Below, piece after piece: positions 37,024 through 63,345 of a stretch of DNA of 64,000 bases. The notes beneath the pieces are model-generated. The model had not been told where the DNA came from, did no database searches, and was given only the letters and a program-made list of their open reading frames with translations. The stretch is from Porphyra umbilicalis (lineage: Eukaryota > Rhodophyta > Bangiophyceae > Bangiales > Bangiaceae). The stretch covers positions 429,713-493,712 of the forward strand of contig KV918775.1 of assembly GCA_002049455.2 (NCBI GenBank), given 5' to 3'. Numbering within the stretch: the first letter of the stretch is position 1; each line of letters starts with the position of its first letter. The translations under genes were made by a program, and so were the position numbers.

Positions 37024-37150
37024 AGGCTCCGAGGAAACAAACGAGAGTGGGGACCTGGGGACCAGCTGGTCCCCACTCTCGTTTGTTTCCTTGGAGCCTG
37101 GCGGGCCAGTTAAAAATCACAGCGCTGCAGCGCTGTGATGCTTAACTGGC
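37024..37150. repeat. Two adjacent large inverted repeats
   Basis: First, 32-bp arms at 37024-37055 and 37068-37099 with one mismatch and a 12-base loop; the inner ends read GGGGACC and GGTCCCC. Second, GCCAGTTAA at 37105 pairs with TTAACTGGC ending at 37150 and encloses a perfect 24-bp palindrome at 37116-37139 (core AGCGCTGCAGCGCT). The DNA could extrude two cruciforms side by side. Confidence 0.9.
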
Positions 37151-37170
37151 GTTGTGGAAACGCCTTGTGG

Positions 37171-37231
37171 AATGGAAGACTCGCGACCCATATTCTCTTG
37201 TAAACGATTCTCTTAAAACGAGAACGCACTG
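37171..37231 (-). mobile_element. Truncated MITE copy, inverted
   Basis: On the minus strand it starts CAGTGCGTTCTCGTTTTAAG and matches the first half of the MITE at 37481-37610, then stops after TCTTCCATTCCA. It lies next to the large inverted repeats. Confidence 0.8.
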
Positions 37232-37480
37232 TGAGGCACACAGCATCTAAATTGTGGACACTTGGTGTGCATACTGTACATTGCTGGCGCTGTGCACGTG
37301 CTCCTACCGTGCGAGTGCACTATTGGTTGTACGAAGACGTAGCACCGTCTGAACAGTGCTGAACTCACAGTGGTGCAGAGAACGGTGCTTGCGGTCATAG
37401 GACTGTAGCTATCGGCGATATTGACACATGCATGCCGTCGCAGGACGTCTTGAGGTACTCCAACAGGCCAGGGTGTGGTA

Positions 37481-37610
37481 CAGTGCGTTCTCGTTATAAG
37501 AGAATCATTTACAAGAGAATATGGGTCGCGAGTCTTCCATTCCAGTCCGTGTAGGCCACTGTTATTGATATTCAGCTGAATCAGCCGTCTCTTATAACGA
37601 GAACGCACTG
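37481..37610. mobile_element. 130-bp MITE, pogo/Tigger-like
   Basis: Starts CAGTGCGTTCTCGTTATAAG and ends CTTATAACGAGAACGCACTG, so the terminal inverted repeats are at least 20 bp. It is flanked by TA on both sides (37479-37480 and 37611-37612), the target duplication of Tc1/mariner/pogo elements. Ends starting CAG with a TA duplication are typical of the pogo/Tigger branch. Confidence 0.88.
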
Positions 37611-38402
37611 TACACACAGCGATTTGCGACCTCTTCCTTATTTAATCCTGGTGCTTGATTCAGATGGTCCGCAGGGGTTTCCAGAGGTCTGTCTGTTTCT
37701 TGCATCCAAATCAATCCTGCACACAGCTTTGAACGATCCTTCGAATTATCGCACATCGATTGAAGGATCGGTAGGAGGGAGTCCCTCGAATTCTTCCACA
37801 GATGCTCCGGATGTGATGCCAGGATCGTCGTGAGATTGGCGCACGTTGTTTCTTCCGGAAATTACTTGGAACTCTCTCAGGGCGACTTCAGTCATTTTCT
37901 TCGGGATGATCTTACGCAATGTCCTGGGATCAGAAGCGGACTGCTCCGTGGATAGTCCGTGGGATCAAACGAAGAACGTAACAGCAGAGTACCATTGGGA
38001 TGATCTGTGAGATCTTCCGTCGGTCGTTTCTGAGGGCAACACTCGTCCCAGTTCTGGGATTGTTCGTCACACGGCCATGTAGGACGATGCATGGACGGTT
38101 CGCGAGCTCAAGCATGCTGCCAGCTTCTGGATTCAGTAGAGTTTAACGAATCAGAACCTCGTGTGCATCGAGCACACGCGGCAGGGCGGTTTTACGCTCT
38201 TGCCATGCCACACCTCGGATGATGTGCCGGGGACGTCTTCTGTCAAGGGCTGCTCGTACTGGGTACAGAAGCGCGATTCGAATCGTTCCTGGACTGGTCT
38301 TATCCGAATCGAGTCTGCTTGTGTCTCCCCGCATCGTCATAGCTCCCTATTGAGTGAATTCGAAGCTCAGCTTGCTGCCCTGTTTCTGGCCCCCAACCGG
38401 CA
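37611..38402. other. Left subterminal region of the large transposon (inferred)
   Basis: About 790 bp without a gene. It carries repeated short words such as GGGATGATCT, GGGATTGTTC, GGGATCA and CCTTCGAA. Related words occur on the minus strand near 52500-52600. Clusters of short subterminal motifs are usual in large cut-and-paste elements. The exact terminus was not found. Confidence 0.45.
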
Positions 38403-41390
38403 ATGAAGCGTCGCAGGCGGGGGCCTCGAGGCTCCGCCTACTTCGATCTTTCCGATGGAGACCTCATGCATATGCAGTCGCAGCAGGCCACCTCAACGAC
38501 AGGTTCGAGAGCAGTGCCTATGGAGGAGTCTGGAAATAGCGGTGTGACGCAAAACCTGGGCCTGCTGTCAGGAAGGCCGTCACCAGCACCCTCTCTAGAG
38601 GACCACCAAGATGTAGTCACGTCTTCAGAATCTGAGCCTGATGGATGCCCCTCTGACGATACAGACATCTCCAGTGAAGAGGAACGACCAGTCGGGCAAT
38701 TTGCGTCTCGCCGGGAGTTTCTCTGCTTTGGGTACCTCTTTGGTCGAGCGCGTGTCACGCTGCGGCAGTACGACATTATGCGAGAGGCAGAGAACTCATT
38801 CAGCCCCAAAGAGAAGTGGCCATCTAGATGGCGCTTACAACAGTTGCGCAAGCAAATGCTGAACACCGCTATACCTCTGAGACGGGAAGTGACCACGCGG
38901 CAGTTACCCGTTGGCAAAGGGAAGGCTCTTCGCAAACTGCCGGACGTTACTGTGTCTTACATTCCCTTTTCCGTGCACATCAAGAGGGACTTTGAGGACC
39001 CAGTCACAGCAGCTCTGTTCCACAGCGAAGGGGATGCGCGCGCAGGGACCGTTGAGCGCCCAACAGAGTTTTTTCAAACAGTAGCTGCGAGGGACCCGGC
39101 TCGGTTCAATTTCAAGAACGGATTTTTCCGAGACGGATACACGTACGGCATTGGGTGTATTGTCTCTATCTTTTTGGATGGCAGCACAACGCTCCCGGCC
39201 CGATTGGAAAGCACAGCGATTGCATCCGATGGAGACGTCTCGATCTCAGAGGCGTCGTATACTCCACCAAGCGCCCTCAGAGTTGGGGACTTACTAGGGC
39301 TGTTTGATGTCATGCATGGGATTGAGCCTCCTGATCCGTGGGCTTCGTGCTTTCAGGATGCTCGCCGGTGCACGCTACGATTCACAAGGTCAGGCGGTGT
39401 GTTTATCAATGCGGTGCGCAGCTCTACCGAGCGCGAAAAGGATTCTTGGACGCTGTTGACGGCAGAAAAGCCGATTGAGCTGACACAAGTTGCAGAGCAA
39501 AACGAAGACGAGCTGCCAGAGAAAGACCCACACACTCTGTACGTTTCATTGTACGCGGATGAGTTTAGCGTGTACAAGCGACGCCGTGGGAGCTTAGAGG
39601 GCTACTACGGAGCGTATACGTCTCTGAGCTTGCATGATCGTGCGTTCTCCGTTCGGCCACTCTTTTACTTACCACCTGGGGCAAACCCTGAAGCTCTCTT
39701 GAAGCGTGTCGTCGAGGACATGCTCCAAATGAGCAAGGAAGGTGTTGCCGTGTATGACGCGCACTCAAAGGAAAACATCGTGGTTCGGGTTTTCTTGTGC
39801 CTGGGCGTGTTTGATTTTCCTATGGCGGCCAAGTTCTCCAACTCTGTAGGAGCTCCAGGAACTGAGCACTGCACCAGCTGCGACATTGTCCATCCGAAGA
39901 CTAAGAGCGAGAGGAGGGATCGCGCGATGAGCAGCACAGTTTCCTTTGATGTCAAAGACACAAGGTACTCCAGAGTGCAAGACCGAACAGCTGCCATCAT
40001 GTCTTCCCTGAAGAGATCTACGCAGTTGTCTGCAGAAGCTATGAAAGACGCACTCCTGCTAAATGGAGTTACGGACAAGTCAGGTAGCCTGATGATGCGA
40101 CTGACTGAGGCCCGAGGTCCTGGGACGTTTGACATACACGAACATGTCATTGTTGCACCATCTCACCTTTTGTACTACAACATTGCATCCAACCTCCTGA
40201 TGGAAGCGTACGAGGCACTCTCTGTCGCGCAGCGTGACAAATTCATTTCAGAAATGCGCCGCAGTTCGAAACATGTTCCAACACACACGATCCTATCATC
40301 CTTTGAGCCTGAAAAAATGGGTGGCACGACTCTTTCTATGTCCGACTACGCAGTGCTGCTTACCGTGGGTCCCACGGTCCTGGAGTACAGTGTGCACACC
40401 TCAAGTACTTCTGCACGTGCGGTTGCTACTGTAACCGCTCTGAAGGCCCTACGACATTTCGCTACTGCTCTGTTTTACAGGCCGACTCTGTGCTCTGACG
40501 GAGAGCATGCCGTGAGGGAACGGCCAACAGTCGTTGAGCTCCAACGTCTCGGCGAGAGTCTGATGATTGAGTTGCGTCGCCTGCAACCGTTCAGCGGAAA
40601 GTGGGAGCGGCCTGCCGTTCATCGCCTTTTGGAGTTGCTGTATCGTACTCTACCGTTGGTGCAGCTCGGCTCATCAATATGCGAGCTCATCTTTGAGAAC
40701 TTCCATCAGATGGCGAAGCGCGAGATCGGCCAGAGCAACCATCGGAACCCTGCGGAATATTCAATGCAAAGGTGGAGAGACACAGAGCAGTACTCAAGGG
40801 CACTGTCCATGCCTGATGAGTACGGCATTCCGAAATCGTGGCTGCTTGGCCTCGGCGGTAATCCATTGAAGGCCGTCTCTTTTCACAGGCTCGCTCCGCA
40901 GAGGCGGTTGGCATCCGCCACTGGCCGAAGGTGGTGCGGCAGGGAAGCCTTGAGTATGGTTTTGGGTTCGACAGAAGACTTCTGGCGGGGTCACACACCC
41001 AACGCGCCCGTCAAGTTCTGGAGGAAAGCCAGGCACCCACAGCGATCATTTTTCATTCGAGAGGGGTCGACAGTGTCTGTGCTCCAAGAAGAAGATGCAT
41101 GTGACGTATTGAACGACCCCAGCACGACAGGAGGGCAGAGAGTACAATTCGGTCGCGTCCGAGCGATTGGCACAATTGCGGAAGAGCTGTACCTTGAATG
41201 TGAATGGTGGACAGCCCCTGCGTCAGCCTTATGCATCGTTGGGAAACCTACGGTAGTCCAACTCGACGCTACGTCCGGCGTGGAACTTGTGCAAGCTGAG
41301 CGCGTACTGCAGTCTGCTTTTGTTCTCCCTTGCGGCGCGGACAAGGTACTGTTCACAAAGAAGTCGGGCTTTCACTTTAAGAGCGGCTGA
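38403..41390 (+). CDS. DDE-type transposase-like protein (CACTA/Plavaka/KDZ-like)
   Basis: A 995-residue intronless protein with codon use less GC-rich than the surrounding host genes. The middle resembles the tnp2/Plavaka type of transposase: LYADEF with Asp 386, then GYYGAYTSLSLHDRAFSVRP, FYLPPGANPEALLKRVVEDM, CLGVFDFPMAAKFSN with Asp 471, and a CxxC (HCTSC). Near residue 761, ICELIFENFHQMAKREIGQS gives the likely third catalytic acid (E761 or E765), followed by a basic SNHRN. The order Asp, Asp, Glu fits an RNase-H-fold cut-and-paste transposase. The N-terminus is basic then acidic (EPDGCPSDDTDISSEEE). No internal stop or frameshift is seen, so the gene may be functional. Superfamily placement is by motif only. 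It is convergent with the JmjC gene. Confidence 0.72.
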   Translation: MKRRRRGPRGSAYFDLSDGDLMHMQSQQATSTTGSRAVPMEESGNSGVTQNLGLLSGRPSPAPSLEDHQDVVTSSESEPDGCPSDDTDISSEEERPVGQFASRREFLCFGYLFGRARVTLRQYDIMREAENSFSPKEKWPSRWRLQQLRKQMLNTAIPLRREVTTRQLPVGKGKALRKLPDVTVSYIPFSVHIKRDFEDPVTAALFHSEGDARAGTVERPTEFFQTVAARDPARFNFKNGFFRDGYTYGIGCIVSIFLDGSTTLPARLESTAIASDGDVSISEASYTPPSALRVGDLLGLFDVMHGIEPPDPWASCFQDARRCTLRFTRSGGVFINAVRSSTEREKDSWTLLTAEKPIELTQVAEQNEDELPEKDPHTLYVSLYADEFSVYKRRRGSLEGYYGAYTSLSLHDRAFSVRPLFYLPPGANPEALLKRVVEDMLQMSKEGVAVYDAHSKENIVVRVFLCLGVFDFPMAAKFSNSVGAPGTEHCTSCDIVHPKTKSERRDRAMSSTVSFDVKDTRYSRVQDRTAAIMSSLKRSTQLSAEAMKDALLLNGVTDKSGSLMMRLTEARGPGTFDIHEHVIVAPSHLLYYNIASNLLMEAYEALSVAQRDKFISEMRRSSKHVPTHTILSSFEPEKMGGTTLSMSDYAVLLTVGPTVLEYSVHTSSTSARAVATVTALKALRHFATALFYRPTLCSDGEHAVRERPTVVELQRLGESLMIELRRLQPFSGKWERPAVHRLLELLYRTLPLVQLGSSICELIFENFHQMAKREIGQSNHRNPAEYSMQRWRDTEQYSRALSMPDEYGIPKSWLLGLGGNPLKAVSFHRLAPQRRLASATGRRWCGREALSMVLGSTEDFWRGHTPNAPVKFWRKARHPQRSFFIREGSTVSVLQEEDACDVLNDPSTTGGQRVQFGRVRAIGTIAEELYLECEWWTAPASALCIVGKPTVVQLDATSGVELVQAERVLQSAFVLPCGADKVLFTKKSGFHFKSG

Positions 41391-41888
41391 GGGAGGCTGC
41401 ATGAGTTTTGCGAGGAGCACGGAGACGGTAGCCCAGAAAAGGCTGTTATTGCACGACTTTTTATAGACCTATCGTGCTGATACGGTCGCAAGAGACAAGC
41501 AGAGAAGTTTCGTAGGAAGAGTTGTTCACATTTTCAGTTAAGATTCAAAGCCAAAAGAGAAGTATCATTTCGCCATCTTTGCCAGTCGTCGCTCGCAACC
41601 ACTACTTTTTCTCTCTCTTTGAAGGGACCTCACTCTTCGTACAGACCTGTGCCGACGCCATGGCTTGTATAATCTATCGCAAGCCATGCCAGATCCCTGT
41701 GCACGATGGCGCGGGAGTTTCTGTCCGCGACGTTGGTGCGTGCAGCGCCCCGTTGATCGACGGAACAAAGGAATCAAAGGAGAGGCATCACATGATGAAG
41801 GCGCCCCAGTGAGCATCACGAAACTGCCACTCAACTCACATACAGACAAAGAAGTACGAAACCCACAGAATGCAAGAACGTTGTCGAC
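41391..41888. other. Spacer between the two convergent transposon genes
   Basis: About 500 bp without coding signal; it must hold both 3' ends. Confidence 0.5.
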
Positions 41889-44800
41889 TTAGTCACTACC
41901 CATGTCCCCAATCGTCTTCAGCTCCTCCACTAGCGAGGACACGCGGCCATTGGATAGCCGCTGCACCACCAAAGGAGCGTGACATCCAACGAGGTGCGGC
42001 TCCTTCCCGCTGGCCTGCTCGGGCCGGTAGTGCTGATCGTCGTACTTGGTCGGCGCGCACCGCCAGCAGCAGATCGGCGCACTCGGTCCAGCTCCGTCGC
42101 CTAGCTGGTCAATGCATGCCGGGCACACGACCAAGGACATCCAGACGACAGTTCCGCAATGAGGGCACGCCGCACCGTCCACAGAGTAGTCTGTGACGAC
42201 TCCATCCTTCTCGTGGGGGAGCACCAACCCGTGACCGGCTGGTTTGATCGCGTTATCGGTAACAAACTGCTTCACAGCGTGGGGTGCCGCTTGTAAGTCC
42301 ACGACGACTGCGTTTTCTCCCTTCCAGGCTGGATGCGAATCGGTTCTCATGTACGCAAGGATGCAGTCTAGATACTCGGTCAAGAAGGAGGTCATGACTC
42401 GGAGGTCCCGTCGAAACTCTGCTGGGTCGCACGCCTCATAGGCTTTCGCATCGCCAAACCACCACTTTCCAGCAGCCAGTTTCAGGGCGCTCAGTACGAG
42501 CAGCTTCTCGAATGGAATAAGCATCCCTATCTTTCCACGCCAGCGGGCCTCATGTTCAATAGCATGCGCAAGCCAGCCAGTGCACGCAAGGTTCACTGCA
42601 GACGCTACGTTCGTTCCCGCGTTGAATCCGCTGTGCGGAACGCCGTAGCCCGTCACGACGAAGTCGCCAACTTCCATTTTGTGGAAGCCGACGCGAACGC
42701 CGTGCGCAAGGAAAAACGACGCAGGCCACAAGACTGCCTTCTCCGCTAGAAACGTCCACACGTCACCTCCTGCAGCTGCCAGAACGACAGGGTCCATGTG
42801 TTCACTGATGACGCGTACCATTTTTGGAACCTCAGACCTCGCAACAAAAAACCAGAACTTGTTCGCCCCGGACTGCAGGTAGGAAGTCGACTGCAGCAGA
42901 TGGTCCTCTACATGCCAACTAAAGTGAGACCCAACGCTTCCCGTATAGAGAAAGCTAGTGTTGATGCCTTCGTATGTGGCACAGGCACCAAGCATGCTGT
43001 GGTGGTTCAGAGTACGAGGGTTCTGCAAGCGCTCATTCGGCGGAAAGGGCTCCGGTTTGGCTGTACAGGCTCGATCGCCCAGGCTCCTGCCACACCCATC
43101 TTCGTTCGCTGGAGTCATGTCGGAGACGTAGCACACCTCTATTGGCTGGGGCTTTCCAGGACCAAGGGCTCTGGTCTCGCGCCCACCTGCAGTCACACCT
43201 CGCATCCAGGTGACCCTCGGATCATTGACGTTCTGAAGGAACTGAGGAACACCAAAGTCCTTGTATCGGGCGCGAAGAGCGGTTGTGCTCTCGCGCATCC
43301 TCTTCGTGACCTCAGCACTCGATAGCATCATCTCCCTTTCTGGCGGCATTTGATCTCGTAGCCCTTCGCGATTCACACCAGGATGCGCCTGCGTGCTACC
43401 ACCGAAGGACGCACTGACAATGGTTGGGTACTGCGGGAAAGTTTGAATCCGCACCCGGACTTTCACGCCAACTTTCCGCTTTGGCGCCGCGCATGACACA
43501 GGTCGAATACGGGGTGCTACTATTCGAAACACGTGTGCGCCAAATGTACGGATGGACGCTGTCTGCGATCGAATCAAGCCAAGCAGTCCGAGGTCCGGAA
43601 GGGTGGTTATGCAGGTGACAGGAATTGAGTGGAACTTCGTGCCACCGTGCTCGGCAGTCTGCGGCTCCACCACCGACTCATCGTGTTGCAGCCGCGCCAG
43701 TGCATGCAGACCCCCTTCACCACTGCCTCCAGCACCACCGTGCGCCACCCGCCCACCCCTTAGGCCGCCACCTTCACCAACAGGCCGACAGCGTGCGTCG
43801 CCTTGACGTTGACCTTGACCATCCCGTCCAGCATCAGCACAACGACGAGCATCACGTGCGACCCCGTCGTCAGCGACCTCGTCGACATCGCCACCTTCAC
43901 CAACAGGCCGACGGTGTGCGCCGCCTTGACGTTGACCTTGACCACCCCGTCCAGCATCAGCGCCACGATGAGCACCACGTGCAACGTCGTCGTCACGGCC
44001 ACCTCGATCATCGGGGCGACCGTGACCGCCGCCTTTTCCATGACCTTGACTACCTTGTGCACCATCACCTCCACGGCCAGCTTCACCTGCGGCCTCATTG
44101 TCACCGCCGCCTCGTTCGTAGGGCCGACGGAGACCTCCGCCTTGGCATTGATCATCACGATCACGTCCTGCTGCACCACCAGGTACCTCATCGTCATCAA
44201 CATCGTCATGATACCCCACTCGACTACCAGGCTGACGGCGTCTGCCACCTTGTTCTTGAATGTGTCCAACTCGGCCACCGTCGCCATTACGGCAGACGCC
44301 ACCTGCCACTGCATCGTGACCACCAACTCGACCATCAGGGCGACGGCGTCCGCCGCCTCGACCGGCACCTTGACGATCTCGTCCACCGTTAGCGCCACGA
44401 CCGGCACCATCTGCGACCCCATCGTCTCTGCCAACTAGACCATCAGCGCGACCGCGACCGCCGCCTTGCGCTGAACCGTGACCACGACGGCCACCGTCGC
44501 CACTACCACCGGCGCCACCTGCCTCATCAACGTGGCTACCATCGCGACCACCAGACTGACGGCAATCGCTGCCCGCACCTTGACGTGCAACACCCCGTCC
44601 GCCATCATCACCACAACCAGCAAAAGCGGCAACTTGATCGTCTCCGCCAACTCGCCCGTCGGCGCGACCGCGACCGCTGCTTTGAACTGGACCGTGACCA
44701 CGACGGCCACCGTCGCCAATACGGCCGGCACCACCTGCCACTGCATCGTGACCACCAACTTGAGCATCAGGCCCACAGCGCCCGCCGCCACGAGCGGCGC

Positions 44801-47800
44801 CTTGACCATCTCGTTTATCAATAACGCCATGACCCGCACCAATTAAGACTCCACCGTCGCCGCCAACTCGCCCATCAGCACGACCGCGACCGCCGCCTTG
44901 TGCTGGATCGTGACATTGACGGCCACCGTCGCCACCAACACCGGCGCCACCTACCTCATCAACGTGGCGACCAACGCGACCACCAACCTGATGGCCATCG
45001 CCGCCCGCACCTTGACGCGCAAAACCCCGTCCGCCATCATCACGACGACCAGCACGAACAGCGGCTTGGTCGTCTCCGCCAACGCGCCCGTCAGCCCGAC
45101 CGCGACCGCCGCCTTGACCTGGACCGTGACCACCTCGGCCACCGTCGCCAATACGGCCGGCACCACCTGCCACTGCATCGTGGCCACGAACTTGATCATC
45201 AGGCCCACAGCGCCCGCCGCCTCGAGCGAAACCTTGACCATCTCGTTCATCAAAAGCGCCATGACCCGCACCAATTAAGACTCCACCGTCGCCGCCAACT
45301 CGCCCATCAGCACGACCGCGACCGCCGCCTTGTGCTGGACCGTGACCACGATGGCCACCGTCGCCACCACCACCGGCGCCACCTGCCTCATCAACGTGGC
45401 TACCAACGCGACCACCAACCTGATGGCAATCGCCGCCCGCACCTTGACGCGCAAAACCCCGTCCGCCATCATTACGACGACCAGCACGAACGGCGACTTG
45501 GTCGTCTCCGCCAACGCGCCCGTCAGCCCGACCGCGACCGCCGCCTTGACCTGGACCGGAACCACCTCGGCCACCGTCGCCAACACGGCCGGCACTACCT
45601 GCCACTGCATCGTGACCACCAACTTGAGCATCAGGCCCACAGCGCCCGCCGCCTCGAGCGGCACCTTGACCATCTCGTTCATCAAAAGCGCCATGACCCG
45701 CACCAATTAAGACTTCACCGTCGCCGCCAACTCGCCCATCAGCACGACCGCGACTGCCGCCTCGCGCTGGACCGTGACCACGATGGCCACCGTCGCCACC
45801 ACCACCGGCGCCACCTGCCTCATCAACGTGGCTACCAACGTGACCACCAAACTGATGGCAATCGCCGCCCGCACCTCGACGCGCAAAAGCCCGTCCGCCA
45901 TCATCACCACGACCAGCAAAAGCGGCAACTTGATCGTCTCCGCCAACTCGCCCGTCGGCGCGACCGCGACCGCTGCTTTGAACTGGACCGTGACCACGAC
46001 GGCCACCGTCGCCAATACGGCCGGCACCACCTGCCACTGCATCGTGACCACCAACTTGAGCATCAGGCCCACAGCGCCCGCCGCCTCGAGCGGCACCTTG
46101 ACCATCTCTTCGATCATAAGCGCCACGACCCGCACCACCTACGACTCCATCGTCGCCTCCAACTCGCCCGTCAGCGCGACCGCGACCGCTGCCTCGACCT
46201 GGACCGAAAACACGACGGCCACCGTCGCCACCTGCCTCATCAACGTGGCTATCAACACGAACACCAGACTGACGGCAATCTCCGCCCGCAGCTTGACGTG
46301 CAACACCCCGACCGCCATCATCACCACGACCAGCACGAGCGGCAACTTGATCGTCTCCGCCAACTCGCCCGTCAGCGCGACCGCGACCGCCGCCTTGATC
46401 TGGACCGTGACCACGACGGCCACCGTCGCCACCACCACCGGCGCCACCTGCCTCATCAACGAGGCTACCAACGCGACCACCAAGCTGATGGCAATCGCCG
46501 CCCGCACCTTGACTTGCAACACCCCGTCCGCCATCATCACCACGACCAGCACGAACGGCGACTTGACCGTCTCCGCCAACATGCCCATCAGATCGACCGT
46601 GACTGCCACCTTGACCTCTGCTACCCCGTCCACCGTCAGCGCCCAGACGAGCTGGGACTTGATCACCTGCGCCGAAACGAGCATCAGGCCGCCGTTGGCC
46701 ACCGCTTTGGCCTCGACGTTGGCTATGGTCAGTATGGCGTCCGCCGCTGGCAGCACCTGCTCGTCGACCGCCTCTGCCACTGCTACCGCCACTACCACCA
46801 GATCCGCCGCGGCGGCTGCGTCCCTTACTGTGTCGTGCGTCCCGCCCCGATCCTGGCCTCTCGTCGTCGTCGTCATGGCTACCGTCGCGGTCGCCCATAT
46901 GAGCATCTCGGCAAGAGCTACCGCCGCAATCGCTATCGTCGGGGTTGTCAGCAGCGCGTCCACTCAAAATCGCATCAGCCTGCTCTTCCTCCTTGAGCTG
47001 GTCATGCACAGGGTAATGAGCCACGAGCAGGTGCCGGAGGCGATGACGGAAGTCAGGGGCGTATGCCGCCTGCTGCCACTTGGAAGAGTGCGGGTCCAAG
47101 AAATCTCGCCTGCTAGCGTCGTTGGGTGCGCCGAACAGAAGAGCGACGTACGCCAGGAGGTTGTCGGATGTCTCGCGCGCGTCGCTCCGCCGCGGCGCAA
47201 TGACCGACACAGGCAGCATAGTTCTCAAGTTGCTCTCAACGCGGAAGCAATAGTCCGTGTCGATGGAGTGAACCTGCGCCACAACGACGGCCAGCATCTT
47301 GATGAACCCCTGCAGCACACACTCATTCCAGCCCCCATCCCCCTCGCCAACTCCAGAGGTGTCTATGACCACTATCGCGCCGTTGGCCGAGTTCAGGACC
47401 TCGGCGGCGTCCGTCTCACGCCGCATGTAGCGCACTAACACCGGCAAAACTTGGTCCAAGTCTCTCAGGACCACCCCCCACCACACGTTGCCGGAACGCA
47501 CAGGCATCACCGTCATTCCTCCGCTCAGAACCATGCCGTCCCTAATCGCCTTGCTCCCAAGGCGCACACCCCACGACTTGCCAGCCGCGGCGCCGACGAA
47601 CGCGTCAGCAGTCATGGAAGACAAGACACGGGCGCCGCCACGCGATCGCGACGTGACCGCCCGGGAGAGGAACCAAAAGAAGACACCATCGACAACCCGC
47701 TGGGACAATGAGCTCCTGCCACGAACAGACTGAGCGTCTCCACTCGAAAGCTCAACGCGGCGCTCGGCATTGCGGGGAAAGAGCCACGGCCCCTCCGAGG

Positions 47801-49052
47801 CAGAAGCGTTGGGCCCTGTATGCTCACCCGAGGCGTCAGCACGCTCCGCAGTCCGCTGCAGCTCTGGTCGAGGGTAACCTTCACCGCGGTGGCGCTTGGT
47901 CGGCGACGAAATAGGCGCCGGGGTCGTCGACGGCGAATCGTTGAGTTGCGGGGGCCGGGGTCGGCGAGATGGCGCGAGCCGGTTAGGTGGTGATCCCACC
48001 GGTGGAAGCGGCGGGCGTGGCGCGGGGCGGCATCCTCCATCGCATGCATGTGCAAGGAGGCCCTGGAGGAGAAATCGAGCCGCCTGCGAAACAGAGCCCC
48101 CACCTTGCAGCATGCTTACAGAGCCTAGCATCGTCGAATCAAGACCCACCACGTTGCCACACCCCGCCGAGCAGTCCCGCATAACTTTCAATCGCGAATC
48201 GTCTGGCAGGAAGCTCGGGCCAGCAAACTCGAGCGCAGCAACGGCCATTGTCAGTTGCCCGGGAGATAGCCCGCCGACGGAGCCAATCAGCGTTCCACGA
48301 GCCCCTTGGATGACCGAGGCAAACGGAGATGCGATGGACGGTGGAGCAGGGCCCGATCCAATCGCGTGCTCGGTTCGAGCAGAAGCTCGTTCCGACACCA
48401 ACAGGCCGGCGTGACGAGCGTGATCTCTCACCCCACCCGATGCCGCGACCGCCGCAGCAAAGCGTGGCCATTGCGGCACCCGCGCTTCAGACCCGGCGGG
48501 GTCACGCGCTCGGAGGGAAGCGTTGGGCCCTTGCACCACATCTGATGCCGCTTGGCCGCGCGACGGCCCGTCAGTGCGGCTGCTCTTTCTTGATTGTCGA
48601 TCTTGGAGGCCTGATCGGGCCCCGTCCAGTCCGCGCCGGTTGGGGAGACGGATCAGCGTGCCACCGCCGCCACGCACGCTGGCATCGACCGTGCGGCCAA
48701 TGGCGCCACGAACAGCGCCGCCTGGCTCAAACAGCCGGGGCCCGGAGTCACCGCTCCGAGGCGCGTGCAAATCCGCGTCTCGACCCGGGGCTTGCAATGC
48801 GTCGGCGGCTGCTGCAGCCGCCTGGGCCATCCGAAGCGCCTCAGCGGCGATACGTGCGGCGTGCACCTGTGCTCGGGCGAATCGGCGCCGCTGGCCACGG
48901 GCATAGTTGGCCCCCCGCCCAGCCGTCTCGTCCGATCCGCTCATTACGCCGTTGTCGCCGATCTCATCAGAGTGGGCCCCGTCTTTTGTCATGGTCGGTG
49001 GCACGCTGCGGCGTCGGCGCCGTGCCAATGCTCTCTTAAAGGCACGCGGCAC
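41889..49052 (-). CDS. Giant transposon-borne JmjC dioxygenase protein with repeat array
   Basis: One uninterrupted frame of 2387 residues starting MPRAFKRALARRRRR. Order: (1) basic, Ala-rich N-terminus; (2) about 450-685, a globular region resembling a C48/Ulp1 peptidase with altered catalytic positions; (3) about 690-1770, roughly thirty 36-residue Gly/Asp/Arg-rich repeats; (4) a linker region; (5) a JmjC domain, about 2016-2180. In the JmjC domain, FSWHVEDHLLQSTSYLQSG gives iron ligands H2047 and E2049, K2065 in GANKFWFF is the 2-oxoglutarate lysine at the same +18 spacing as in KDM4, and VPHSGFNAGTN gives the third ligand H2140. (6) A Cys/His cluster (CPHCG, CPAC, CCWRC, GCH; about 2296-2342) resembles the zinc finger after the JmjC domain in KDM5 proteins. 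All iron and co-substrate residues are present, so a working histone-lysine demethylase or protein hydroxylase is likely. The Asn that helps bind 2-oxoglutarate in KDM4 is Ser here. Confidence 0.8.
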   Translation of the reverse strand: MPRAFKRALARRRRRSVPPTMTKDGAHSDEIGDNGVMSGSDETAGRGANYARGQRRRFARAQVHAARIAAEALRMAQAAAAAADALQAPGRDADLHAPRSGDSGPRLFEPGGAVRGAIGRTVDASVRGGGGTLIRLPNRRGLDGARSGLQDRQSRKSSRTDGPSRGQAASDVVQGPNASLRARDPAGSEARVPQWPRFAAAVAASGGVRDHARHAGLLVSERASARTEHAIGSGPAPPSIASPFASVIQGARGTLIGSVGGLSPGQLTMAVAALEFAGPSFLPDDSRLKVMRDCSAGCGNVVGLDSTMLGSVSMLQGGGSVSQAARFLLQGLLAHACDGGCRPAPRPPLPPVGSPPNRLAPSRRPRPPQLNDSPSTTPAPISSPTKRHRGEGYPRPELQRTAERADASGEHTGPNASASEGPWLFPRNAERRVELSSGDAQSVRGRSSLSQRVVDGVFFWFLSRAVTSRSRGGARVLSSMTADAFVGAAAGKSWGVRLGSKAIRDGMVLSGGMTVMPVRSGNVWWGVVLRDLDQVLPVLVRYMRRETDAAEVLNSANGAIVVIDTSGVGEGDGGWNECVLQGFIKMLAVVVAQVHSIDTDYCFRVESNLRTMLPVSVIAPRRSDARETSDNLLAYVALLFGAPNDASRRDFLDPHSSKWQQAAYAPDFRHRLRHLLVAHYPVHDQLKEEEQADAILSGRAADNPDDSDCGGSSCRDAHMGDRDGSHDDDDERPGSGRDARHSKGRSRRGGSGGSGGSSGRGGRRAGAASGGRHTDHSQRRGQSGGQRRPDARFGAGDQVPARLGADGGRGSRGQGGSHGRSDGHVGGDGQVAVRAGRGDDGGRGVASQGAGGDCHQLGGRVGSLVDEAGGAGGGGDGGRRGHGPDQGGGRGRADGRVGGDDQVAARAGRGDDGGRGVARQAAGGDCRQSGVRVDSHVDEAGGDGGRRVFGPGRGSGRGRADGRVGGDDGVVGGAGRGAYDRRDGQGAARGGGRCGPDAQVGGHDAVAGGAGRIGDGGRRGHGPVQSSGRGRADGRVGGDDQVAAFAGRGDDGGRAFARRGAGGDCHQFGGHVGSHVDEAGGAGGGGDGGHRGHGPARGGSRGRADGRVGGDGEVLIGAGHGAFDERDGQGAARGGGRCGPDAQVGGHDAVAGSAGRVGDGGRGGSGPGQGGGRGRADGRVGGDDQVAVRAGRRNDGGRGFARQGAGGDCHQVGGRVGSHVDEAGGAGGGGDGGHRGHGPAQGGGRGRADGRVGGDGGVLIGAGHGAFDERDGQGFARGGGRCGPDDQVRGHDAVAGGAGRIGDGGRGGHGPGQGGGRGRADGRVGGDDQAAVRAGRRDDGGRGFARQGAGGDGHQVGGRVGRHVDEVGGAGVGGDGGRQCHDPAQGGGRGRADGRVGGDGGVLIGAGHGVIDKRDGQGAARGGGRCGPDAQVGGHDAVAGGAGRIGDGGRRGHGPVQSSGRGRADGRVGGDDQVAAFAGCGDDGGRGVARQGAGSDCRQSGGRDGSHVDEAGGAGGSGDGGRRGHGSAQGGGRGRADGLVGRDDGVADGAGRGANGGRDRQGAGRGGGRRRPDGRVGGHDAVAGGVCRNGDGGRVGHIQEQGGRRRQPGSRVGYHDDVDDDEVPGGAAGRDRDDQCQGGGLRRPYERGGGDNEAAGEAGRGGDGAQGSQGHGKGGGHGRPDDRGGRDDDVARGAHRGADAGRGGQGQRQGGAHRRPVGEGGDVDEVADDGVARDARRCADAGRDGQGQRQGDARCRPVGEGGGLRGGRVAHGGAGGSGEGGLHALARLQHDESVVEPQTAEHGGTKFHSIPVTCITTLPDLGLLGLIRSQTASIRTFGAHVFRIVAPRIRPVSCAAPKRKVGVKVRVRIQTFPQYPTIVSASFGGSTQAHPGVNREGLRDQMPPEREMMLSSAEVTKRMRESTTALRARYKDFGVPQFLQNVNDPRVTWMRGVTAGGRETRALGPGKPQPIEVCYVSDMTPANEDGCGRSLGDRACTAKPEPFPPNERLQNPRTLNHHSMLGACATYEGINTSFLYTGSVGSHFSWHVEDHLLQSTSYLQSGANKFWFFVARSEVPKMVRVISEHMDPVVLAAAGGDVWTFLAEKAVLWPASFFLAHGVRVGFHKMEVGDFVVTGYGVPHSGFNAGTNVASAVNLACTGWLAHAIEHEARWRGKIGMLIPFEKLLVLSALKLAAGKWWFGDAKAYEACDPAEFRRDLRVMTSFLTEYLDCILAYMRTDSHPAWKGENAVVVDLQAAPHAVKQFVTDNAIKPAGHGLVLPHEKDGVVTDYSVDGAACPHCGTVVWMSLVVCPACIDQLGDGAGPSAPICCWRCAPTKYDDQHYRPEQASGKEPHLVGCHAPLVVQRLSNGRVSSLVEELKTIGDMGSD
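43740..46975 (-). repeat. 108-bp coding minisatellite with 432-bp higher-order period
   Basis: About thirty tandem units of 36 codons inside the JmjC gene. Four distinct units form a 144-codon (432-bp) higher-order block. Their starts in one block are GGHDAVAGGAGRIGDGG, GGDDQVAAFAGRGDDGG, GSHVDEAGGAGGGGDGG and GGDGEVLIGAGHGAFDE. Adjacent 432-bp blocks (for example 45275-45706 and 45707-46138) are nearly identical, while the four units within a block differ more. The block structure implies recent amplification of a whole block. Frames on the opposite strand stay open for long distances. Confidence 0.9.
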
Positions 49053-50685
49053 GCAGACAGCCTAACCAAAAGAGGGATGCACGGCCCTGCCCGACAGAGG
49101 GACGGGCCGTGGCCCAGCCGGCGCGCCCCGAAGGTGGCCGACACCAATTCACACTGGGGCCGCCTGTCCACAGAGGCGGCCCAAACAGTGTCCAGAGGCC
49201 GCCTGTCGGCAGAGGCGGCCCACAGGCGACGACGGCGGTCGGCCGCGTGAGCGGGACGCGCCTGTCGACGGCAGGGATGCGCGGCCCTGCCCGCCAGAGG
49301 GGCGGGCCACGATCCAGCCGGCACGCCCCGGAGGTGGCCGACTCCGATTCACACCGGGGCCGCCTGTCCACAGAGGCGGCCCAAACAGTGTCCAGGGGCC
49401 GCCTGTCGGTAGAGGCGGCCCACAGGCGACGACGGCGGTCGGCCGCGTGAGCAGGACGCGCCTGTCGACGGCGTGGATGCGCGACCCAGCCCGACAGAGG
49501 GGCGGGCCACGATCCAGCCGGCACGCCCCGAAGGTGGCCGACTCCGATTCACACCGGGGCCGCCTGTCCACAGAGGCGGCCCAACCAGTGTCCAGGGGCC
49601 GCCTGTCGGCAGAGGCGGCCCACAGGCGACGACGGCGGTCGGCCGCGTGAGCGGGACGCGCCTTTCGACGGCGTGGATGCGCGGCCCTGCCCGACAGAGG
49701 GGCGGGCCGCGATCCGGCTGGCCTCCACGTAGTGGCCAGCGAGTAAACAATGATCGCGCCGCACTGGGGGTATGATATCACGCGACTGGGTGGAGCTAGA
49801 AAGGATCGAGCGAGAGGGGATCGTGGAGGTGTCTCAGGATGCGACAGCGAGAGAAAATGGATCGAACAGCGCGTGTGCGAGATAAAAGTGGTGTGCAAAA
49901 CAGTGACGACGAAGGGGGAGGTCTAACGACGGTGACGGGGAAGCACGGACTGGGCGCCACGCACCGCTCGGCGAGCGCCTGTTCACGAATGAAACACCCG
50001 CCCTGCCCGCACCCGCACAGCGCGCGCGCAGCGAGCCCCTCCCTGCGGCGCTTCCTAGCGACCCTCAAATGTGTGGCTCCGCGAGATTCGCCCTCGGCAT
50101 GGACGGGGACGACGGCTGAATCGAGATCACTCGTCGGCCGCTATTCAGAGGCCGGAAAACGGCATATCTCCCCGCGAAATTTTAAACAATGGAGTAATTT
50201 GTGAGCCTCGCGAAGGACCAGCTGAAGAAGTTTACCTAGAAGTACTGCTCAAGCGCATAGCGCGGAATGAAGGCTCTGATTTGCTCATCTGTAGCCATCG
50301 GGGGTCCTCCCTTGCTCTCGGCACAGCGGCTGTCTCCGAGACTGTGGCGTAGTCGGTCTCGACCAATGGTCGCCAAGGAACGTACTTACTGCAAGAGGGC
50401 ACTGTGGGGCGTGGCTGGTGAAATTTCATCGGTCTGATGTGCAATCCGAGGCCGCCCGGATACTTCGGAGGTGCACGCAGGTGCAGGTGGAGGTGCGCGA
50501 ACGCAGTTACCGCGTTTTGAGCGCACCGCATGTGGTATGCTCTGATGCACGCGCTTGCCAATCCTTTACGGGCACCAGTTGTCCTGTTTGGCTCTGTGGA
50601 CTGCCGTGGCTATCTGGAGCTGAACGCTTTGCCCTTCATCCAGTGAGACGCTATTGCAGCCATCCGCTTGAGTACGAACGCGACG
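49053..50685. other. Upstream region of the JmjC gene and third transposon gene
   Basis: Starts with the 200-bp tandem repeats described separately. The rest (49760-50685) has lower GC and no clear gene. An additional upstream exon of the next gene is possible (for example around 50418-50685), but no junction is convincing. Confidence 0.4.
49073..49720. repeat. 200-bp tandem repeat array directly upstream of the JmjC gene
   Basis: About 3.2 units with an exact 200-bp period; the word GGCCGCGTGAGC recurs at 49241, 49441 and 49641. Each unit contains AGAGGCGGCCCA and CCGCCTGTC words and is far more GC-rich than the sequence beyond it. The array begins about 20 bp from the start codon of the JmjC gene. 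Confidence 0.9.
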
Positions 50686-51766
50686 ATGGTTGAATTTGAC
50701 GTCGAAGACGACACCGGCACGCCGCATGGCTCACCGGGTGCCAGCTCACCTGCTGTCGATGCTGCCTTTTTCTTGAGTGTATGGAGCTCTCACGGGGTCC
50801 GTTCTTGAGTGCTGTTGGATACGGAGCAGGTGGCTGCATGTGGTCATGCGATGCGCTGTCGTTGCTGAGCAACGTCACAAGGCGCGCTGCATCGACGTAT
50901 GACCTAACTTAGAAGCTCGCTTATGGCTGGTTGTGCGTACGCGACGGTGTCGCCTCATTCCCCTTCCATGCTTACGTGCTGGTTGAGCTTGTCTCCTGTA
51001 GGATGAGGTTAGCCGCCTGTTCACCAGGTACGGCCAAGCTATGCTCAAGAAGATACGAAATGGATCTGTGAACCCTGGTCTGAATGGCAGCGCAGCTGAC
51101 TCGCCTGAACATGACTGCCTGTCGTGGCTCGCCCCGACGGGACAACTGGAAGGCCCCAATCGAGACTGCACTCGCCCCCTGCGCGCTGTTGTGAACAAGG
51201 CGGTTGAGAAGTGCGTCGGAAAGATTGACCACGGCGCGAACGGATGGTCCCAGAAACGGCGTGAAGTGCGAGCTGCGCTGAGAAAGGGTCTACGAACACG
51301 ATGCAATCGCCGACGCGCATCGGCCCGACTGCTTGCCTATCGTACCCTGGGGGTATACATGGACGCTGACGTGAAAGAGGCCACCTTAGAACGCGTTGTT
51401 TTGGCCCACGGCGTGAACGACACCGCTCCAGTCCCGCAGCCTGCTGCCCTGGCCAGTGGAAGCAACATTGGGTACCGCCTGAAACTGCAGGACGGCAGTC
51501 AGGAAATGGAGCGAGCGCTGGACATGAATGGAGCTGCCGGTTCTATAGTAGGGGAGCTCCTGTTGTTGGACCCGAGCGAGGTGTGGACATCTGTGCGTGA
51601 AGGTGCTGCGGCTTGCTTAAAGAAATATGTGGACGACGCCGCGTACCCCAAGTTTTTACGCCCTGAGAGCGCTGAGGCTCGCAAGGGCGTCGTACGCTGC
51701 ATGCGCGATGAGCTCAAAGACCTGAAGGCCGGTGACATTGATCTATCTGACGAAGACTCAGACTAA
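50686..51766 (+). CDS. Third transposon-associated protein, unknown function, two exons
   Basis: Exon 1 is 50686-50778 (MVEFDVEDDTGTPHGSPGAS), exon 2 is 51002-51766. The intron starts GTATGG and ends CTCCTGTAG, phase 0, joining AAFFLS to DEVSRLFTRYGQAMLKKIR. The total is about 285 residues. The middle is basic (QKRREVRAALRKGLRTRCNR), suggesting nucleic-acid binding, then comes a helical part (DPSEVWTSVREGAAACLKKY). The end is acidic (AGDIDLSDEDSD). No family is recognised. Base composition resembles the two neighbouring transposon genes rather than the host genes. It may be an accessory DNA-binding or regulatory protein of the element; this is inference. Confidence 0.55.
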
Positions 51767-52820
51767 TGTTCTGACGTGATGCTCCGCGACATGCCTTGAA
51801 TACGGCTGCACAAGGGTGTTGTTGCCTCGGCAACAGAGATACAGGTTTCATGCTCTGCCGAGAATCTGAGGAGCCCTGTCCGGCGAGCTCTGTCCCACGA
51901 AGATCTCTGCAAGTGAGTGGAGGGTGCAGTTTTTTTTTTCTCTTTTTATCCCTTTTACTGTCGTACCTGTATCATGTTACTCTTACTTGTTCCTATTTGT
52001 CGTATTAAATTTATTTCTGCCACCATTCGCATATCGCGCCAAGAAACAGCACGGGACCGTCATACACCGCCGTCATAGGAACAGTCCTGTGGATTGGTCT
52101 CGAAGACTGCCTCGGAGGTGTATTGCTCATAAATCTGAGCGTCTTCCCGTCGGACCGACCTCTGAAGAAGAGCAAGGACCATCTGCGTCAAAGTGCGAGG
52201 GAAATGCCGCGAAGGATGCAGAGGAGCTGTTCCGTGGACTTCTTTCAAGCTCATCCGGAGAACACGTTCACAAGAATGGGTCTGGGTACGTTCCACACGA
52301 ACAGCGACGAACTCCTCGCACGACTATCCTTTGAACGCGCGCGCGACCTTCTTCGGGCATGGTGTCTCCTTCTGTTTCAAGGCAAGGACTGGGTCAGGAA
52401 CCTCGTTCTTTGCCGCACATTTTTCAGAGAGGAGTTTGCAGCAACATCCTGTTCCTAGCTTGCTGTGCTCGTTGACATCAGTTTCTGCATGTGTTTCGAA
52501 GAATCGTCCTTCGAACGTACTGTTGGATATGCTGCGAGACAATCTTAAGAACAATCCTGGGAACCGTTCCTGACCAGTTCCCGAGACCATCCCGGGAAAA
52601 GACTACAGGGTTGATGCTGGAGGTCGGCAAGGATAATTCCAAGGCCAGTTCCTAGAATTTTCTTGCCGCGCCCAAACAGAAAATCGTCCAAATCATGTGC
52701 CAGTCTTGTTTCGGGATTTTCTGGAGGGCAGTCCTCCGTCCAATTCAGAAGATACTTCCTTATTTATATTGGAATATCTTTCACGAGAAAGTTTCTGGAA
52801 CTTCATTCCAACACACAGTG
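51767..52820. other. Right subterminal region of the large transposon (inferred)
   Basis: AT-richer sequence without a convincing gene. It contains repeated TTCC/GGAA words near 52540-52680 (CCTGGGAACC, GTTCCTGACCAGTTCC, CATCCCGGGAA). On the minus strand the words GGGATGGTCT, AGGATTGTTC and CGATTCTTCGAA resemble those in 37611-38402. Confidence 0.4.
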
Positions 52821-52952
52821 CAGTGCGTTCTCGTTATGAGAGAATCGTTTACAAAAGAATATGGGTCGCGAGTCTTCCTTTCCAGTCCGTGTGGGCCACT
52901 TCTTCTTCATATTGAGCCGAATCAGCTGTCTCTTATAACGAGAACGCACTGT
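52821..52952. mobile_element. 132-bp MITE, second full copy
   Basis: Same family and orientation as 37481-37610: starts CAGTGCGTTCTCGTTATGAG and ends CTTATAACGAGAACGCACTG. It is followed by TA, but the left flank reads TG, so one side of the target duplication is changed or the element lies in an older repeat. Confidence 0.85.
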
Positions 52953-57978: not shown

Positions 57979-58328
57979 ATGTCCGTGGCGGCCCCCACGG
58001 CGACAGCCACCCCCCACCCGCTCCTCGACGCCGCCCCGTGCCTCGTGCGCTTCTCCCCGTCGGCCGACGCCATTGTCAATGGCGCTGCGTGGGCGCAACC
58101 GCACCTCGAAGGCCCTCCGCACGGGGTGCGCCTCGTGCCCGCCGCCGCCGTGGGGCGCACGCGCCCCCCCTCCCCCCCCCCTCCCCCTCCCCCTCCCCCT
58201 CCCCCTCCCCCACCCCCCCCCCCGCGGGTGGGACCTCTACTACGTGCCCCCCGCCGTCGGGCGGTCGGTCGGCCTGCCCGCCGGCTGGACCGCCGCCGTC
58301 GACGACGCGACGGTGGCGGACGCTGCCA

Positions 58329-58359
<31 letters not shown>

Positions 58360-60331
58360 CTGGGCCGTGGCCCTCGTCGACGGCCCGGGCGGCGGGGCCG
58401 CGCGGGCGGCGGCGGCGGGCCGGCGGCGCGGCTGCTGGGGGGGGGGGGGGGGACGACGGCCCCCGCCACGCGGCCACGGCGGTGGTCGACGGCGTGGGGG
58501 GGGGGTGTGGCATGAACTGGGGGGGGGGGGCGCCCGTTTGGGGAACCCCCGCCGCCAGTGACGTATGTGTTTCCCCGGCCGCCGCCGCGGGCGGGTGGCG
58601 GCGACGGCGGCGGCGGCGGTGACACGGATAGGGGCGGCGGTGCGGGCGGCGGTGGCGGCGGCGGCGGCGCCCGCTGGGCCCGCGTCGACGTGCGGGTGGA
58701 GTTTGCCGAGCTCCCCGCCGGCGCCGACGCCGACGCGGTCGTCGACTGGGCCGCCGTCCCCCGCCGCCACGCGTGGACGGTGCGCGTTGGGGTGGTGGCG
58801 GCAGCCGCCCTGCGCGCCGCGGGGCTCGTCGGCCGGGGGGGGAAGTCGTCGGCGGCTGGGTGGGGGGGGGGTGCCGGCACCCCCGCTCACCGAGGGGGGT
58901 TGGGCCGCGGCTGCCGCCGACGCGCACGCGGCGGGCGTCAAGGTGCCTCCCGCTGTGGCGGCGGCGGCGCCCGAGTGCCTCCCCGCCATGCCCGCCACCG
59001 TCAGTCCCGTGGCGGGGGGGGCGGCGCCCCGCCAGTGCCCATCCCCCGCCGCTGCCACAACGGCCGGGGCCGTCGCCGCCACCGCCACTGGCGCGGACGC
59101 GGTGCCCGGCGCCGCGGCCGGCGTGGTGCGGCGGCCCCTCGGCGCCGCCGACGGCGGTGGCGCCGTCGGCGGCGGGCGGACGCCGCCCGCGGCCGCCGCC
59201 GCTGGCGTGGCGGCCGCCGCCGCGGCGGGCGCGCCGCCGTCGCTGCTGGGCGGCGGCCGCCGCGGGCGGCTGCGGCGCTCCCCGGCCCCGCGCCTGCGGG
59301 CGCCGGCGGACGTGGCGCCCGGGGGGGTGGCCGCGCCGGCGGCGGGCGGCAACGGCGACAGTGGCGGTGGCGACGGCGGCGGCGGCGGTGGGGACACGGC
59401 GTCCCCGCCGCGGCGGTCTTGGTCGCTGCCGCGGCCTTCCTTTTCGCCGCCCGCGTTTCTGTCGCCCCCGCTCGTGGCGGCGGGCGGCCGCGGCGGCGGT
59501 GGGGGGGACGCTGCGTCGCTGCCCCCGCGGCCGTGGTCGCTGCTGCGGGGCTCCTTTTCGCCGCCGTCGTTTCCGCCGGCGCTGCCACTGGCGGCGGGCG
59601 GCCGCGGCGGTGACGGTGGGGACGCTGCCTCCCTCGCGCCGCGCTCGTGGTCGCCGCCACGGAGCTCTTTTTCGCCGCCGTTGTTTCCGCCGTCCCGGCC
59701 GTTGGCGACGGGCGGTGGCGGCGGTGGCGGCGGTGGCGGTGGTGGAGACGCTGCCTCCCTGGCCCCGCCGTCATGGTCGCCGCCACGGGGCTCCTTTTCG
59801 CCGCCCGCGTTTCCGCCGCCCCTCCCATTGGCGACGGGCGGCGCGGGGGGGGTGGGGCGGAAGCCGCCGCCGGGGGTGGCAGCGACAATGGCCCACCGTC
59901 GCCGCCGCCGGCACGGCCGCGTAAGCGGCAGCTCGCAGCGGCGGCGGCGGTGGGTGCGGACGCTGCCACCGCCGCCGCCGACGGCGGGGGTGCCGCCGTC
60001 GACGGGGGCGCCGCCGACGGACGGCGCCTGCGACGGCGGCGGGGGCGCGCCCCCCCCGACGGTGGTCCGGCTGCGTCGGCGGCGACGCCCGCCGCGCCCG
60101 TGGCGCGCCCGCCGTCGCCGGCGCGGCCGCGCGTACCCGCCGCGTCGGCGTGGCGGGGGCGGTCGGGCGGCCGCGCGGCGGCGCCGCCAACGGCGGCGGG
60201 CGGGCTCCGGCACCGACCGCCCGCGTCGACGCCCACGTCGGCGGCGGCGGCGGCGCCGACCGCCGGCCGGCGGCGGCGACGTCACGCGCACCGCCGCCGC
60301 CTGGGCGCCGTCGGTGGCGGCGCCGCCGCCG

Positions 60332-60366
<35 letters not shown>

Positions 60367-62303: not shown

Positions 62304-62336
<33 letters not shown>

Positions 62337-63303
62337 GCGCGGTGGGGCGGACCCCGCTGCCGCCCCCCACCCCCCGCTGGTGGGTGCGCCGCCGGTGACG
62401 CCCCACACGACCGACTCGGTCGGCGCGGCGACGCGGCGTGGGCGGCGGCGGCGCGGCTCGCCGGCGCCCCGCCCCGACGGCCGCAGCGGCCGCCACATCT
62501 TTGACGGCGGCGCCGTCGGCGGCACGCCGCTGCGCCGCCGCCACTGGGCGGCGGGTGATGGTGGCGGGGGGGCCTCGGGAGCACCTTTCTTCGAGTGCCG
62601 CCCCCGACCGATGGGGCGGCGCTCAGGGCGGCGACACGCAGGGCGGACCACGAGCGGGAGCAGTACAGGGATTGGTTGCTCTCGCGCAGCGGCGGCGGCG
62701 GCGGCGGCGGCGGCGACGGCGGCGGCGGCGGTGGCGTTGGTGACGGCGGCGACGGCGTCGTCGATGAGTGGTTGGTCACTCGGCCGCTGCGGACGGGCGC
62801 GGGGCCAGCCGCTGCGGCTGCCGCCGCCCCACCGCGGTGGCCCGCGAGCGGCGGCAGCGTCGGTGCCGCCGCCGACGGTGCGACGATTGCCACCCACCGG
62901 CCGTCGTCGCCGCGGCCGCGTGGGGCGTGGTGGCGCCACGCCGCCGCCGCTGCCGCCGCCGCCGCCGACGCCAACAACATCGACGGCGAGGGTGACAGCG
63001 GCCGGCCGCCGATGAGCGCGGCTGAGGCTGCGTTTGCGGCGACACCCGACTTGGCGTCGGCAGCGGCAGACGCCGCCGCCGCCCGGCGCCGCCGCTCGGC
63101 CATGGCTGCGGCGGCCGCCGCCGCCGCGCGCCTCGACGGCACGCGCGCGCGCCGCGCCGGCGCGCACCTCCGCCGCGCCGACGAGCGCGCGCGCCACGCC
63201 GCGGCCGAGGTGGTCGGCGGGCGGTGGCCCGCCGGGGCGGCGGCGCCGCCGCCGCCGGGGGGTGGCCGCCGCCTGCCACCGCCCGCGCTGTGGCCGCCGT
63301 CGA

Positions 63304-63345
<42 letters not shown>

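Follow-up and report, generated by a model that had tools for sequence, protein, structure and literature searches.

The window analysed here is a stretch of 64,000 nucleotides from the red alga Porphyra umbilicalis (C15:429713-493712 in an 83.8-Mb assembly of 665 contigs). In this window, a gene for a JmjC dioxygenase lies next to a transposase gene. The locus raises the question of whether the dioxygenase gene belongs to the transposon, and what such an enzyme would do for it.

Ends, flanks and copies of the element

The element and its immediate flanks consist of the following features.

37615..52820, no strand: whole transposon, CACTA-like, 5' CACAGCGATTTGCG ... CCAACACACAGTG 3'; homology between copies stops here
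37613..37614, no strand: left target-site duplicate CA, from copy comparison
52821..52822, no strand: right target-site duplicate CA, from copy comparison
37481..37610, no strand: MITE-like palindromic repeat in target DNA outside the element, from inverted-repeat detection
52821..52951, no strand: second flanking MITE-like repeat, forming with the left one a tandem pair split by the insertion

The window holds a complete DNA transposon of 15,206 bp with CAC...GTG ends, which were set by comparing fetched pieces from four copies (C27, C254, C130 and C24). On the left, the C27 and C254 copies are homologous from 37615 onward; on the right, those on C130 and C24 are homologous up to 52820. On the right side, homology to C27 and C254 is broken off earlier, at 52764 and 52287. 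The sequence-only reading had placed the element at 37611 to 52820; its right end was confirmed, and its left end is corrected by the copy comparison. The termini of the window's element read CACAGCG...CACAGTG, and only a very short inverted repeat was seen at the ends.

The terminal 180 bases were used as DNA queries against the whole assembly, and 28 left-end and 30 right-end matches were found. The 27 aligned left ends (L071, which matches only from base 44, was left out) share their starting base, and 25 of them open with CAC. Their flanks differ, except that those of C32 and C259 are alike. Similarly, the 12 right ends read in addition to that of the window all stop at the identical base, ending in GTG, with differing flanks. 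A perfect 2-bp target duplication was identified in 11 of 13 two-ended copies (C15, C130, C254, C24, C2, C503, C13, C8, C206, C175 and C124), and a 3-bp match in none; the 2-bp flanks of C27 and C114 disagree. As a control, mismatched left and right pairings agree in 10 of 156 cases (P about 5e-12). The two-ended set comprises the 13 contigs with same-orientation ends, with C182 (opposite orientations) excluded, and some of these copies are lengthened by inserts, e.g. 49 kb lie between the C254 ends. The shared ends and the 2-bp duplications indicate a mobile DNA element. The island in the window belongs, as a single copy, to a large family of autonomous CACTA-like (CMC-clade) DNA transposons. 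Plant CACTA elements commonly have subterminal repeats to which a TNPA-type protein binds; in a crude count for such repeats, exact 7-mers in the two ends were no more numerous than in shuffles.

The flanking inverted repeats, each about 130 bp, abut the element, and their two parts are 93% and 89% alike. They are not parts of the element, because other copies carry different flanks. By reading, the target site appears to be two tandem MITE-like repeats that share one TA and were split by the insertion. The abutting position and likeness of the repeats could suggest a composite moved by the two palindromes instead of a CACTA element, and this was rejected as highly improbable, since other copies have identical start and end bases, other flanks and their own 2-bp duplications, and the repeat pair can be accounted for by insertion of the element into a tandem dimer. 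Near-perfect palindromes with 32-nt arms (37024-37099) and 27-nt arms (37105-37150) also occur in the window, and a half copy of the MITE-like repeat lies beside them at 37168-37232.

The locus had also been described as a lower-GC island in GC-rich host DNA. This holds at both flanks, where the GC content is 0.50-0.56 over 37-42 kb and 0.49-0.58 over 50-53 kb, with most other kilobases at 0.60 or more; it does not hold for the middle of the island, which is GC-rich (0.58-0.70). The last 6 kb of the window (58000-64000) have a GC content of 82-87%, and open frames overlap there on both strands.

The transposase, JmjC and third genes

The coding features of the element are as follows.

38403..41390, plus strand: transposase, 995 aa, Transposase_21 (tnp2/CACTA; Pfam PF02992), 46 loci in the genome
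41889..49052, minus strand: JmjC gene, open frame of 2,387 codons, GTG at 49052 and first ATG at 48992; identified by Pfam
46917..47714, minus strand: N-terminal conserved domain, residues 447-712; 55% identity to P0019 over 260 residues; at least 94 matches in protein searches of the assembly
43766..46572, minus strand: 108-bp (36-codon) repeats, about 21 copies, Gly/Arg/Asp-rich linker, from repeat detection
42591..42950, minus strand: JmjC domain, residues 2035-2154 (Pfam PF02373, E 1.3e-14), with H2047, E2049, K2065 and H2140
42030..42167, minus strand: Cys/His cluster CPHCG...CPAC...CCWRC...H, of zinc-binding type by sequence reading and comparison of copies
51041..51766, plus strand: third gene, 241 aa, conserved in the module; at least 152 matches in protein searches of the assembly

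The sequence-only reading had recognized an intact transposase-like gene, a convergent JmjC gene and a third gene, and all three were recovered as open frames. The transposase matches PF02992 just above the cut-off (E 4.9e-7; 29.6 bits, cut-off 28.6). By reading, D386, D471 and E765 are candidate catalytic residues, with a CxxC at 490-493. Of 12 transposase rows, several of them partial, 11 contained the CxxC, 8 the second D, 7 a single conserved His and 6 the candidate E. These counts used self-chosen patterns aimed at C(2)C and H(3-4)H between the second D and the last E; the second His of the H(3-4)H motif was not found in these rows. Eleven transposase relatives were found in the protein search.

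The JmjC open frame carries, in order, the N-terminal conserved domain, the Gly/Arg/Asp-rich repeats, the JmjC domain and the zinc-type cysteine cluster. The iron triad and the 2-oxoglutarate lysine lie exactly where they had been placed from the letters. Conservation was measured in the best 30 of 73 JmjC loci: H, E, K and H are retained in 30, 28, 28 and 30 of the 30 copies (E and K are each lost in 2), and the positions of the Cys/His cluster in 26-28. When an alignment profile was compared with solved structures, Arabidopsis JMJ13 ranked first (6ip0, E 5e-28); next came a chain annotated as 2-oxoglutarate oxygenase, together with KDM4D, and KDM5 and others followed. Because the best profile matches are JMJ13, KDM4 and KDM5, the fold and the residues fit a histone lysine demethylase. 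Known targets are H3K27 for JMJ13, H3K9/K36 for KDM4 and H3K4 for KDM5. Judged from these best-hit enzymes, candidate substrates span H3K27, H3K9/K36 and H3K4; an H3K4 demethylase would repress, not activate. In the Pfam search, the TET/JBP family was absent from the protein, and JmjC is what was found.

The N-terminal domain and the JmjC domain lie in one same-length open frame at 12 loci (1,848-2,570 codons), and the huge open frame therefore recurs. The relative P0019 has the same domain order as the frame in the window; another relative, P0018, seems, by reading, to start in another frame. The possibility that the Gly-rich stretch is an intron or a wrong frame is countered by the same-length frame at the 12 loci and by the order in P0019. 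Within the repeat stretch, GC by codon position is about 0.92/0.68/0.36 and long open frames run on both strands. The differences between repeat copies have no consistent third-position excess, and the third position leads only between neighbouring units. Coding of the Gly-rich repeats themselves is not proved by these sequence patterns.

The N-terminal domain is 27-38% identical in distant subfamilies, compared with mostly 55-68% for the JmjC domain. It has no match in Pfam or PHROGs, and a Ulp1-like cysteine protease, guessed by reading, was dropped without support from either. No JmjC relatives were found among proteins 0.55 to 1.75 times the length of the whole open frame, and eight were found with a shorter JmjC piece as query. 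Just upstream of the JmjC start, a 200-bp tandem repeat in 3 copies (92%) with GC-rich hairpins occupies 49075-49722 and is possibly the promoter region of the gene. The protein of the third gene has a weak Pfam CC142_N match below the cut-off and a weak PDB match (E 0.0011). Searches of viral and prokaryotic contigs found no relatives.

Pairing across the genome, selection and descent

Protein searches of the assembly gave at least 48 transposase matches (46 loci) and at least 76 JmjC matches (73 loci). A convergent JmjC gene lies on the opposite strand, 210-983 bp downstream, at 44 of the 46 transposase loci; under even scatter, about 0.02 such pairings would be expected by chance. The defined ends enclose the gene and the pairing is nearly constant, which bears out the claim that the transposon owns its JmjC gene. 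The sequence-only reading would have been contradicted by transposase copies lacking the gene or by a single-copy host JmjC gene. Copies without it amount to 2 of 46 loci (9 of 69 class-A loci in a looser Pfam search), and the gene is not single-copy: 73 close loci exist, and three host-like genes group apart. Of the two exceptions, C503:33202-36174 adjoins the end of its contig (37,069 bases), and C95:16909-19338 matches residues 1-810 only, with N-terminal-domain and third-gene matches present downstream.

The full module is regular as well. The order transposase (forward), JmjC and N-terminal domain (both reverse), third gene (forward) was identified at 35 of 46 loci under generous limits of 30 and 36 kb, and at least 1 of the 35 (C80:139613) borrows parts of a neighbouring copy. 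At 37 of 46 transposase loci, a third-gene match lies on the transposase strand within 36 kb downstream. Among the 73 JmjC loci, 29 are without a transposase match; downstream of these, the N-terminal domain is present at 23 and the third gene at 20. Identities to the window are correlated between transposase and JmjC (Spearman 0.47) and between transposase and third gene (0.60).

A control was available within the same genome. Pfam Transposase_21 has 136 matches across the genome, some below the cut-off, in a scan that scored 150 of 176 candidates. The matches were split into classes A and B according to which section of the profile they cover; this split was made after viewing the list. In class A, which is the kind found in the window, a convergent JmjC gene lies within 8 kb at 60 of 69 loci. 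In class B, no JmjC of any kind lies within 8 kb at any of the 67 loci (Fisher P 2e-29). This contrast indicates that the JmjC gene belongs to one CACTA-like lineage, not to all. Pfam JmjC itself has 105 matches across the genome, of which 41 have no class-A transposase within 8 kb.

Many class-B loci, e.g. C21:189264 and C320:56845, share a frame length of 946 or 1,046 codons, and the group looks recently active. At C212:66297-80691, C164:53414-63335, C173:15134-23737 and C90:66822-76156, JmjC genes are separated by 8-14 kb from homologues of the third gene (about 39% identity), and the JmjC domain of C212 is 44% identical. These four loci probably represent an older branch of this element family, its transposase undetected. 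The profile PF18264 (preSET_CXC), a cysteine-rich domain found in E(z)-type methyltransferases, has 76 matches in the genome. Many of them sit in long frames, often of 900-1,250 codons, and are too numerous for a host gene; they perhaps represent another mobile family with a CXC-like domain. The contig C665 holds eight near full-length phycobiliprotein matches, as expected of a red alga.

Selection was compared between the two genes. Between the window and intact JmjC copies of other subfamilies, dN/dS is 0.15-0.20, with most comparisons near saturation (dS 1.4-1.9, above 1.3). For the transposase it is 0.10-0.19, where the value of 0.10 falls at a saturated dS of 2.2; seven transposases were compared (8 fetched of 46 loci, including the window), of which five contain stop codons, and these codons were skipped. 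The closest three to four JmjC copies (C8, C6, C206 and C175), at dS of about 0.7, give 0.18-0.20. In the C8 copy, dS is 0.66 for the JmjC gene and 0.58 for the transposase. Near copies of the window's element have dN/dS of 0.51-0.58 (JmjC) and 0.63-0.64 (transposase), and a 99% copy has about 1, with very few changes. Among the 30 JmjC copies fetched, 21 are free of stops. For both genes alike, these substitution patterns fit selection along the active lineages and relaxation in individual copies.

Capture of host gene fragments by CACTA elements is known, and the JmjC gene could be such a passenger, functionless for the transposon. This is very improbable. The presence of the gene at nearly every transposase locus, its regular layout, its catalytic residues, the class-B control and the low dN/dS between subfamilies speak against it, and likewise against a neighbouring host gene. 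Pairing and constraint mark the JmjC gene as a regular component, under selection, of one CACTA-like lineage.

In the JmjC tree, the element-type proteins and a divergent group (P0017, C212) are split from the host-like genes C263, C30 and C344 and from KDM5B, with support of 100/98. The tree holds 16 of 40 rows, near-identical ones having been thinned, and its long branches were flagged by the program. Among these three host genes, the KDM5-like C263 has the lowest similarity (27%). The JmjC gene may have been taken up a single time, before the family diversified.

Proposed role and comparison with known systems

The JmjC protein is probably a lysine demethylase that erases a repressive histone methyl mark and lets the CACTA-like element escape silencing. 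The N-terminal domain or the third protein would perhaps bring the JmjC protein to the chromatin of the element. The mark would be removed there, the transposase gene would be transcribed, and the element would move. The enzyme would be the histone counterpart of the TET/JBP genes on fungal transposons.

The DNA_methylase profile PF00145 has no match in the genome; the control was positive in 10 of 14 genomes, and introns could hide pieces. Because no DNA-methylase domain was found in the genome, histone methylation is the likelier silencing layer. In another red alga, Cyanidioschyzon merolae, H3K27me3 is reported on up to 50% of repetitive elements (PMC5405695; review PMC8566409). A narrower version of the proposal is more tentative, namely that the red-algal CACTA-like clade lives by a histone demethylase that clears its own copies of Polycomb-type H3K27 methylation, in a host that has no cytosine methylation of its DNA. 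If this were true, a self-encoded eraser of histone marks would be a standard component of a transposon lineage and a sign of an arms race at the histone level.

Two other roles are unlikely, each to a similar degree. The JmjC protein might act at integration, by opening or recognizing target chromatin or by guiding the transposition complex, with anti-silencing not its main role. Its gene lies regularly beside the transposase and is similarly constrained, and the fast-evolving N-terminal domain of this multi-domain protein could be a targeting factor. However, the 27 left-end flanks have, by eye, no evident common target sequence, and a catalytic triad kept in nearly all copies indicates enzyme activity, not only tethering.

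Alternatively, the target of the JmjC protein might be H3K4 methylation or a protein other than a histone, e.g. the transposase, or it might act by binding without catalysis, like Epe1. In the H3K4 version, the element would be kept quiet and tolerated. Fission yeast Epe1 is reported to oppose heterochromatin non-enzymatically (PMC7192584), KDM5 is among the profile matches, and a few copies are without E or K. Against this, the subfamilies retain H, E, K, H and the Cys cluster, and of the three host genes it is the KDM5-like one that resembles the element's protein least. Erasure of a repressive histone mark remains the preferred reading.

The element resembles CACTA/EnSpm (CMC/CMCT) transposons in its Transposase_21 domain, the CxxC after the candidate second acidic residue, the CAC...GTG termini and the possession of several genes. 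Its 2-bp target duplication fits the 2-5 bp given for the CMCT clade and differs from the 3-bp duplications given for EnSpm (PMC12730594). The JmjC gene further sets this family apart from the class-B Transposase_21 group of the same genome. At the protein level, the JmjC fold by profile, the HxE...H and K residues and the Cys cluster after the JmjC domain are shared with JMJ13, KDM4 and KDM5; the repeat linker, the N-terminal domain of its own and the location on a transposon are not. The protein's type also groups apart from the three host JmjC genes and KDM5B.

The sequence-only reading knew of no described element with this layout, and no transposon with a JmjC or histone demethylase gene was listed in searches of the open-licence full text of PubMed Central, with Repbase reports outside this scope. 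In the covered part of PMC12730594, no JmjC-carrying element was found, and the words JmjC and Jumonji are absent from its text. Since the literature searches gave no such element, a CACTA-like transposon with a histone-type epigenetic eraser is considered a new form of an already known type of element. A testable question follows, namely whether transposons fight silencing via histone methylation in eukaryotes that may lack DNA methylation. A further question is which mark silences transposons in such eukaryotes. Tens of natural variants of the enzyme are present in the genome, where the JmjC-free class-B elements can serve as an internal control.

Other DNA transposons encode proteins that act on chromatin or against silencing. 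Oomycete HarbingerS and MuDR elements carry a SET histone methyltransferase, and plant VANDAL elements encode an anti-silencing protein (both cited in PMC12730594). These belong to other superfamilies, and their proteins are a methyl writer or a sequence-specific regulator, whereas the protein described here resembles a demethylase, i.e. an eraser. In fungi, transposons from many superfamilies, among them KDZ, EnSpm and Plavaka, carry TET/JBP dioxygenases (Kojima 2025, PMC12730594). Like the present element, they are DNA transposons with a gene for an iron/2-oxoglutarate dioxygenase, which is proposed to counter the silencing of the element. The comparison with KDZ/TET elements, which the sequence-only reading had drawn, can serve as an analogy only, since the transposase and dioxygenase families both differ: the TET/JBP enzymes of fungi act on DNA bases, whereas the JmjC protein of the red alga is of the histone-demethylase kind. 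DNA-demethylating dioxygenases on fungal transposons were already known; a transposon lineage with a histone-demethylase-like gene that is nearly as constant a part of the element as the transposase did not come up in the literature searches.
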